From contig PHBY01000001.1 of assembly GCA_002840735.1 (NCBI GenBank), positions 1-64,000 of the forward strand: a stretch of DNA of 64,000 bases, read 5' to 3'. A program made the translations under genes and the position numbers. Source of the stretch: Chloroflexi bacterium HGW-Chloroflexi-2. GTDB taxonomy: Bacteria > Chloroflexota > Anaerolineae > Anaerolineales > Anaerolineaceae. Below, piece after piece: positions 52,668 to 54,975 of the stretch. The notes beneath the pieces are model-generated. The model did no database searches, had not been told where the DNA came from, and worked only from the letters and a program-made list of their open reading frames with translations. Each line of letters begins with the position of its first letter. Within the stretch, counting starts at the first letter, position 1.

Positions 52668-53732
52668 ATGAATATTGCAAGTTCATTTCGTTTGGTAGCG
52701 ACAATTTTATGGGTTGGTTCTGTTGGCTTCTTGGTATTTGCCATGTTGCGATCTAGCCAAAATAAACCTATTCGAAGAAGTGGTTTAACGATTGTTGTCG
52801 CTTTTGTAGTCTCATTAATTTTCAGCTTGCTTTCCATGGGAATGGTTTTTGTCGAACCTCAGGAGCGTGGAATTGTGATTTCTGCTGTTTCTCCTTTAGG
52901 TTACCGGGAACAGGCCTTACAACCCGGGCTTCAATGGATCATTCCTGGGCTTGAAAATGTAAAACGATATCCGATTTCCAAACAAAGTTATACGATGTCG
53001 ATTGCGCCGTCAGAAGGGGCTTACCTGGGAGATGATTCAATCACAGCTCGTACTTCGGATGGTCAGCAAATTTATGTTGATGCTTCAGTCATTTACAGTA
53101 TTAATCCAGCGGACGTCATCAAAGTTCATATCGAATGGCAGGATCGTTATGCGGATGGATTGGTTCGGCCTGTTGCTCGTGCAGTAATCAGGGATGCCGT
53201 CAGCCAGTTTGGTGTCGAGGAAGTGTATTCCAGCAAGAGAGATGAATTGACTCTGCTGATCACCGAAAATATGGTTGAAAAATTATCACAAAATGGTTTG
53301 ATCATGGATCAATTCTTGTTAAGAAATATCACATTCTCTGATGAATATGCAGCCTCAGTGGAACAAAAACAGATAGCCGAACAGCTTGCGCAACAGGCGA
53401 AATTTGTTGTTGAACAAAAGAAACAGGAAGCAGAACAAGCTCGGCAAACCGCTGAGGGTTTGGCAGATGCAGCTGTTATTCGATCCAAAGGCGAAGCAGA
53501 AGCTAGATTGATCCAGGCAGAAGCAGAAGCCAAAGCGTTGTTATTGATTGCGGATGCTGTTAAAGATCGATCTGATTTGTTAACCTATCAATATATTACT
53601 AAATTGGCTCCCAATATCCAAACCATGTTATTACCGGCCAATTCACCATTCCTGTTTCCATTACCGGACATGAATGTGACTGAAAATCAAACGCCACCAA
53701 TTATTACTTCTGAAACAGAGCCAATACCATAA
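52668..53732 (+). CDS. SPFH/prohibitin-family membrane protein
   Basis: A 354-aa protein. Two hydrophobic segments (about 5-25 and 38-62) precede the SPFH/band 7 domain (about 65-250; VEPQERGIVISAVSPLGYREQALQPGL). A heptad-rich region with Gln/Ala/Glu-rich sequence (about 225-300; EAEARLIQAEAEAKALLL) follows. Such proteins oligomerise on membranes and scaffold proteases or lipid domains. AAGGAG precedes the ATG. It is a single-gene unit ending at an intrinsic terminator. Confidence 0.9.
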   Translation: MNIASSFRLVATILWVGSVGFLVFAMLRSSQNKPIRRSGLTIVVAFVVSLIFSLLSMGMVFVEPQERGIVISAVSPLGYREQALQPGLQWIIPGLENVKRYPISKQSYTMSIAPSEGAYLGDDSITARTSDGQQIYVDASVIYSINPADVIKVHIEWQDRYADGLVRPVARAVIRDAVSQFGVEEVYSSKRDELTLLITENMVEKLSQNGLIMDQFLLRNITFSDEYAASVEQKQIAEQLAQQAKFVVEQKKQEAEQARQTAEGLADAAVIRSKGEAEARLIQAEAEAKALLLIADAVKDRSDLLTYQYITKLAPNIQTMLLPANSPFLFPLPDMNVTENQTPPIITSETEPIP

Positions 53733-53739
53733 AGTCAAA

Positions 53740-53782
53740 AAAAGAACGTCCTTCGAAAAAATTGAGGACGTTCTTTTTTTTT
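53740..53782 (+). terminator. intrinsic terminator after the SPFH gene
   Basis: An 11-bp stem AAGAACGTCCT/AGGACGTTCTT (53740-53750 with 53765-53775) followed by a long T run. Confidence 0.9.
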
Positions 53783-53799: not shown

Positions 53800-53872
53800 A
53801 GCGGTCAGGGTGTTTATGGCAGGCGCACACCTGCCATAAACACCTACTTACCTGGATTTATTGAGATGATAC
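53800..53872 (+). repeat. dispersed palindromic repeat, copy 2
   Basis: It begins AGCGGTCAGGGTGTTT, has a 15-bp perfect stem (53809-53823 with 53830-53844) around CGCACA, and ends GATTTATTGAGATGATAC. It is the same length (73 bp) as copy 1 at 34532-34604, on the opposite strand. Where the stem sequences differ, both arms have changed together. It lies between the SPFH terminator and selD. Confidence 0.85.
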
Positions 53873-53913: not shown

Positions 53914-54975
53914 ATGAATGAAAAAAGTACTTCTGGGAAACAAATAAGATTATCTTCTCTTTCCAATTGTGCTGGTTGAGCTTCCAAATTAAATGCGGAG
54001 ACGCTATCGCAAGTTTTGCGACCAATAGGAAGTATATTCAATGCACAGGACTATCCTGATCTTCTGGTAGGAATTGAACCTCCAGATGATGCAGCTGTAT
54101 GGAGAATAGACGAAACCAGATCTATCGTTGTCACCACAGATTTTTTCACTCCGGTGGTTGACGAGCCGTATGATTATGGAGCAATTTCGGCTGCCAATAG
54201 CCTGTCCGATATTTACGCCATGGGTGCAGATCCTTTTCTGGCATTAAATATCGCTGCCTTCCCGCCTGAATTACCAGCTGATTTTTTAAGCCAGATTATT
54301 AGAGGTGCTGCTGAAAAAGCAAAAGAAGCAGGCGTAATCATTGCTGGTGGTCATACCATTCAGGACAAAGAACCCAAATTCGGACTGGTCGTGATTGGCA
54401 TGGTTGAAACTCATAAAATTCTGACAAAATCAGGTGTTCAGCCGGATGATATACTAATTCTCACCAAACCACTGGGAATGGGTGTAACAACAACAGCCAA
54501 TAAAGCAGAAAAAGCAAAGAAAGAAGATATTGAAGAAGCCAAATTTTGGATGAGAAAGTTGAATAAAATTCCCTCCAAAATAGCCACACAATTAAACCTG
54601 AAAGCAGCTACAGATATTACTGGTTTTTCCTTGTTAGGACACGCATACGAAATGGCAAATTCCTCAAAAGTTGGGATTATTTTCAACTCACATGATATTC
54701 CATTCATAAAAGGTGCAAGATATTACGGCGAAAAATGGTTTTTTGCCGGGGGAGCTGCAGATAATCGTTTGTTTTACGAAAAATATGTCGAGTTTTCCAC
54801 GGATATCGATGAAGTCAACAGAATGTTACTTTTCGATCCACAAACTTCTGGTGGGCTCCTTTTAGCATGTCCACCCAATAAATATTCGGAATTTGAGGTA
54901 GCAGCCAAAAACCAAAATATGCCTTATTGGAAAATTGGTCATGCATTTCATGGAACCGGGATAATTGTTAAATAA
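53914..54975 (+). CDS. selD: selenide, water dikinase (selenophosphate synthetase) with in-frame TGA read as selenocysteine
   Basis: Makes selenophosphate from selenide and ATP for selenocysteine synthesis. From the ATG at 53914 the frame reads RLSSLSNCAG-TGA-ASKL and continues into the known SelD body (DDAAVWRID, TTDFFTPVVDEPYDYG, NSLSDIYAMGADP, GGHT, DITGFSLLGHA, DPQTSGGLL). The TGA (53977-53979, residue 22) falls at the position of the essential Cys17 of E. coli SelD (AGCGCK), and Lys25 matches the catalytic Lys20. Conventional calling would start at a TTG at 54016 and lose this active site. A hairpin 33 nt after the TGA can serve as the bacterial SECIS. The full length of 353 aa is typical. 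Confidence 0.9.
54007..54021 (+). promoter_or_regulatory. candidate bacterial SECIS hairpin in selD
   Basis: TCGCAA (54007-54012) pairs perfectly with TTGCGA (54016-54021), leaving GTT in the loop. The loop G lies 33 nt after the TGA, inside the 16-37 nt range reported for bSECIS elements with a loop G. Confidence 0.5.

Follow-up and report, generated by a model that had tools for sequence, protein, structure and literature searches.

In E. coli SelD, Cys17 is the selenide-binding site and a Cys17-to-Ser mutant is inactive (PMC3956282), and removal of the catalytic N-terminal loop left a Leishmania SelD construct unable to complement SelD-deficient E. coli (PMC7595633). SelD proteins that contain selenocysteine (Sec) have long been known and are described as widespread (PMC4561486; PMC13188914), with Sec in 19% of the SelD genes of one reference set (PMC4561486) and the SelD motif listed as UxxK in Table 1 of PMC13188914. 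The SelD considered here is encoded in a window of 64,000 bases, which corresponds to bases 1–64000 of contig C7 (335,217 bases) in a 4.1-Mb genome. Its best match among solved SelD sequences was that of Aquifex aeolicus (2yye; 215.9 bits), whose motif, SSGCAAK, is also without a second cysteine; the E. coli Cys-SelD (3u0o) was related over residues 9–342 (207.0 bits). Relative to the E. coli protein, the window SelD has Sec in place of Cys, a hairpin within its coding sequence, and no second cysteine, whereas the solved Aquifex chain differs from it in having Cys at the Sec position and Ser, rather than Cys, at −3; we take the natural residue at that position of the Aquifex protein to be Sec. 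With the Sec-SelD/SPS2 group (TIGR00476) it shares a full-length match, Sec where E. coli has Cys17, UxxK, and a SECIS-like hairpin downstream, and it departs from that group in its motif, CAG-U-ASK, in which Ser replaces the second cysteine of E. coli and a Cys stands at −3 from Sec. The gene is selD, for selenophosphate synthetase (selenide, water dikinase), which activates selenium, and its product is almost certainly itself a selenoprotein in which UGA 53977 is read as Sec. Such a protein is a known kind of selenoprotein and ordinary biology, and its presence here is well supported at the sequence level.

The frame that opens at ATG 53914 contains a single internal stop, TGA 53977–53979, before its TAA at 54973–54975, and translation with that TGA read through gives a 353-residue product in which Sec would be residue 22, flanked as NCAG-U-ASKL. 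With C substituted for Sec, this protein scored 352.9 bits against the TIGR00476 profile (profile positions 1–310 of 311; curated cut-off 125 bits), compared with 329.8 bits for residues 30–353 alone. A phmmer comparison with solved SelD sequences aligned U22 with Cys17 and Lys25 with Lys20 of the E. coli protein (3u0o; numbering obtained by counting along the alignment), so that U22-A-S-K25 falls on E. coli Cys17–Lys20 as a UxxK/CxxK catalytic motif. The first-pass annotation had described a frame open from ATG 53914 save for one TGA, had placed that TGA at E. coli Cys17 with a Lys three residues on, and had noted a hairpin with a loop G 33 nt after it; the sequence and its translation, the alignment to 3u0o, and the hairpin at 54007–54021 agree with it on all three points. 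Ordinary gene finding cuts Sec-SelD genes short, and a gene finder that takes this TGA as a stop yields a SelD from which the active site is missing; the reading given here is a useful annotation correction. Feature coordinates are collected in Table 1, in which the sequence counts refer to 96 distinct homologous sequences, defined below.

Table 1. Coordinates of features at and immediately upstream of selD (positions in the window).
Feature	Position	Strand	Basis or detail
Perfect 16-bp inverted repeat with terminal A and T runs	53737–53780		Between the upstream ORF (52668–53732) and selD
selD coding sequence	53914–54975	+	ATG 53914–53916 to TAA 54973–54975
Cys19 codon TGT, three residues before Sec (C-x-x-U)	53968–53970	+	Cys in 82/86 TGA-bearing and 9/10 Cys-bearing sequences
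In-frame TGA, predicted selenocysteine codon matching E. coli SelD Cys17	53977–53979	+	Alignment; TGA in relatives
Lys25 codon (equivalent to E. coli Lys20), K of the UxxK motif	53986–53988	+	Lys in 96/96 distinct sequences
Bacterial-SECIS-like apical hairpin UCGCAA-GUU-UUGCGA	54007–54021	+	6 bp; loop GTT 54013–54015
TTG opening the conventional ORF; not accepted as the true start	54016–54018	+	Program-made ORF list

A SelD match at E ≤ 1e-50 was found in 315 of 400 genomes of the phylum, and conservation was counted from the best 150 of these matches. By hand count, 133 of the 150 listed matches, the window included, span a TGA (132 with one, and one with two), and the remaining 17 are free of it. 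In 60 of the 133 the TGA was located, each time at the same codon; the corresponding codon was read in 10 of the 17 stop-free matches and was TGC or TGT, coding for Cys, in all 10. The in-frame UGA thus aligns with Cys in homologues. Altogether 100 loci were read, which after removal of four duplicates left 96 distinct sequences, 86 with TGA and 10 with TGC or TGT, a ratio that is not a frequency, the 10 Cys loci having been picked for the lack of a stop. Within a set of 80 named loci, which overlaps the unnamed set by several loci, TGA was present in all 34 assigned by name to Chloroflexota and in 14 of the 46 others, and it occupied the position in 30 of 30 loci of the series L009–L038, in which L009 is the window's own. 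The nearest named relatives by SelD are Chloroflexi bacterium HGW-Chloroflexi-3, with 93% identity, and two Anaerolineaceae assemblies with 91 and 79%, and on this basis the organism is taken to be an Anaerolineaceae bacterium of the phylum Chloroflexota. A cultured relative, Ornatilinea apprima (L146), also has the TGA.

This conservation bears on where the protein starts. If translation began at TTG 54016, the start given in the program-made ORF list, the product would be a SelD of 319 residues that lacks the catalytic loop at its N terminus, and the frame upstream would be untranslated; inspection of the sequence revealed no strong Shine–Dalgarno motif before ATG 53914. However, the three nearest relatives (L010, L011, and L012) differ from the window by 2, 3, and 6 changes in the 15 codons before the TGA, all of them synonymous; extending the comparison to 21 codons gives synonymous/nonsynonymous counts of 3/0, 4/1, and 6/1, and five more distant loci (L013–L017) have 2–4 nonsynonymous changes in the same 15 codons. 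The TTG column, which falls on the 3′ side of the hairpin stem, holds a start codon (ATG, GTG, or TTG) in 17 of the 86 TGA-bearing sequences, and the failure of the loop-less Leishmania SelD to complement E. coli (PMC7595633) also speaks against a protein of this form. The region 5′ of the TTG, on whose conservation in Chloroflexota relatives the first-pass annotation had made its reading depend, is conserved, and we consider a TTG start highly improbable.

The genome encodes a tRNA-Sec with a TCA anticodon (C7:144326–144418; 69.9 bits, gathering score 47), SelA (C7:246883–248205; 546.4 bits), and SelB (C7:187713–189596; 349.7 bits over positions 2–580 of 581), all on the window's own contig. 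The expectation that the organism decodes Sec, for which a search of the genome for selA, selB, and selC had been proposed, is supported by the presence of all three genes. One SelD match in the genome lies above the family cut-off, and three others score 55.0, 40.5, and 29.3 bits. The same genes weigh against a reading in which the TGA specifies a standard amino acid, by a reassigned code or by leaky read-through, for which nothing speaks beyond the open frame itself. TGA ends 11 of the 47 long ORFs in the window, which rules out a general reassignment of the code, and the residue is Cys in the 10 relatives without TGA whose codon was read; we judge this reading to be about as improbable as the TTG start. 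Less probable still is that the gene is a pseudogene or that the TGA is a sequencing error that resequencing would remove, since 86 distinct sequences, including that of the window, have a TGA at this codon, with the frame conserved on both sides; no observation favored either possibility.

Across 69 genomes, SelA scored above cut-off in 37 of 40 with a TGA-containing SelD, in 16 of 17 with a stop-free SelD, and in 1 of the 12 that gave no SelD match (absence being defined at E 0.001 for five of the 12 and at E 1e-50 for seven). SelA therefore accompanies SelD whether the latter has Sec or Cys. The three TGA-SelD genomes without SelA over the cut-off comprise two that are 77 and 84% complete and one in which SelA lies in two adjacent pieces. 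In one genome of the same family as the window (G023), the SelD codon is TGC and there was no SelA match; the simple reading would be that Cys replaced Sec and that Sec decoding was lost. Together with the TGA-bearing relatives and the Cys-bearing relatives that keep SelA, G023 makes up a natural series for studying the exchange of Sec and Cys in SelD. Another genome of the family (G406, 99% complete) has SelA at E 5.1e-153 and no SelD match at 1e-50.

The hairpin downstream of the TGA was compared with the published bSECIS model, for which a figure legend in PMC13188914 gives a loop of 3–9 nt, an upper stem of 4–16 bp, a G at loop position 1 or 2, and a distance of 16–37 nt from the UGA. The selD hairpin lies within this geometry, with a loop of 3 nt, a stem of 6 bp, G as the first loop base, and a spacing of 33 nt between TGA and loop. 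The same legend sets an energy limit of −7.5 kcal/mol at most; the selD hairpin alone has −4.8 kcal/mol and is weaker than this if the hairpin alone counts, and the hairpins of L010 and L011, with one more pair, have −7.5 kcal/mol. The 54-nt region reaches −9.7 kcal/mol, yet its fold does not surpass those of shuffled versions (z −0.23; 75 of 200 as good).

Counting sequences and not independent events, the seven hairpin pairs form in 87.4% of cells over the 86 distinct TGA-bearing sequences, against 27.2–57.6% in six slid versions, and double-change cells number 36 against 4–22; extra pair types (16) barely exceed those of the best slid version (15). In the Cys genes, 58.6% of 70 hairpin cells pair. 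The top pair, which joins the third position of a Gln/His codon to the first position of a Leu codon, is G-C in 55 sequences, A-T in 8, and non-standard in at least 19. The loop begins with G in 82 and continues with T in all 86 TGA genes, but this G-T is part of a Val codon and GT is also found in 8 of the 10 Cys genes, so the conservation of the loop is not independent evidence. When each gene was set against 200 synonymous versions of itself, the best hairpin at 16–37 nt beat 95% of them in 58 of the 86 TGA genes, with 28 failing to do so, as compared with 1 of the 10 Cys genes. For the window selD, none of 200 synonymous versions was as stable with third-position GC weights, and 60 of 2000 were with window codon usage. 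A hairpin of −4.8 kcal/mol or better follows 24 of 735 TGA triplets sampled in the window and none of 11 ordinary TGA stops. Read together with the A of its last pair, the apex is AGUU, and many relatives have GGU at the same place. An outer stem around the hairpin, GCUUCC/GGAAGU, is complete in the window and L011 and has five of six pairs in L010; it pairs in 43.2% of cells over the 86 sequences and is thus not conserved. A search against Rfam at E up to 10 returned 11 matches, all below gathering scores and none of them to a SECIS model.

The reading frame, the machinery genes, the conservation of the TGA, and the constraint on the hairpin can all be read from the DNA itself. On the Sec reading that we prefer, the ribosome would start at ATG 53914, and UGA 53977 would be served by SelB and Sec-tRNA-Sec because SelB would recognize the hairpin at 54007–54021, with translation continuing to the stop at 54973. 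Sec22, in the N-terminal loop, would then supply the catalytic selenol, with Lys25 as the conserved lysine beside it, and the enzyme would convert ATP and selenide to selenophosphate. As SelA needs selenophosphate to make Sec-tRNA-Sec, we propose that this SelD depends on its own product.

Relative to the Sec position, all 86 TGA genes have Lys at +3 and Ser, Ala, or Gly at +2, and 82 have Cys at −3, whereas the 46 named loci from outside Chloroflexota have Gly (35) and in a single instance Cys (L160) at −3, and Cys (32), Ala (13), or Ser (1) at +2. Nine of the 14 Sec-SelD sequences outside the Chloroflexota set also have no second cysteine, so its absence is not special to the lineage; Cys at −3 occurs in one of the 14 (L160), and across the loci compared it is a mark of the lineage, although a minor feature. 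One may speculate that Cys19 and Sec22 (C-x-x-U) form a selenenyl-sulfide, serving as a built-in redox switch or in the hand-over of selenide, in a cell whose only recognized SelD needs Sec to make Sec. We regard this as rather unlikely; eight of the nine outside Sec-SelD sequences without a second cysteine also have no Cys at −3, from which it follows that Sec-SelD does not generally require a partner thiol, and this lowers the odds of a Cys19–Sec22 pair. L160, titled Pleurocapsa minor, a cyanobacterial name, has a SelD with TGA and a C-A-G-U motif of the Chloroflexota type; it was counted with the non-Chloroflexota loci despite that motif, and its title may be unfit for the assembly. SelD-like matches of 41–47% identity also lie in open frames of 742–796 residues in five genomes (G034:C204, G022:C18, G011:C21, G016:C1, and G035:C54), perhaps SelD fused to another domain, and two long SelD matches per genome were seen in G011, G031, and G055, and at L149 and L151.

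Further candidate users of Sec were found elsewhere in the genome. Four of its 12 AhpC/TSA matches contain a TGA (L211, L214, L215, and L218, on contigs C2, C39, C34, and C14), in the contexts FTFV-U-PTEL, GFA-U-PHC, AFT-U-PFC, and HLG-U-LPC, at what is presumably the catalytic cysteine site. In each of the four, a hairpin lies 17 or 25 nt after the TGA, with a loop of AGUU as at the selD apex, and of 2000 synonymous versions 13 (L214), 12 (L215), 50 (L211), and 118 (L218) were as stable, which marks the L218 hairpin as weak. We consider these four genes probable further selenoproteins. Sec-FdhA was considered as another and set aside: none of the FdhA matches, two above the cut-off and seven weaker, has an internal stop. 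No SelU match, as a sign of selenouridine use of selenophosphate, was found at E 0.001, and no PF02662 match, as for an MvhD-type protein, was found. The corrected selD, the sel genes, and the four UGA-containing AhpC/TSA genes together indicate selenoprotein synthesis in this Anaerolineaceae lineage. A table passage in PMC1794560, which does not carry their names, already counts three selenoproteins in Chloroflexi.

Two inverted repeats precede selD. The one at 53737–53780 (Table 1) probably acts as a terminator between the upstream ORF and selD. The other, at 53809–53844 just 5′ of selD, is a perfect 15-bp repeat with a 6-nt loop; a reversed control pattern gave no matches in the genome, and the repeat itself gave one more copy, with three mismatches (C37:109971–110004). 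It is perhaps a second terminator.
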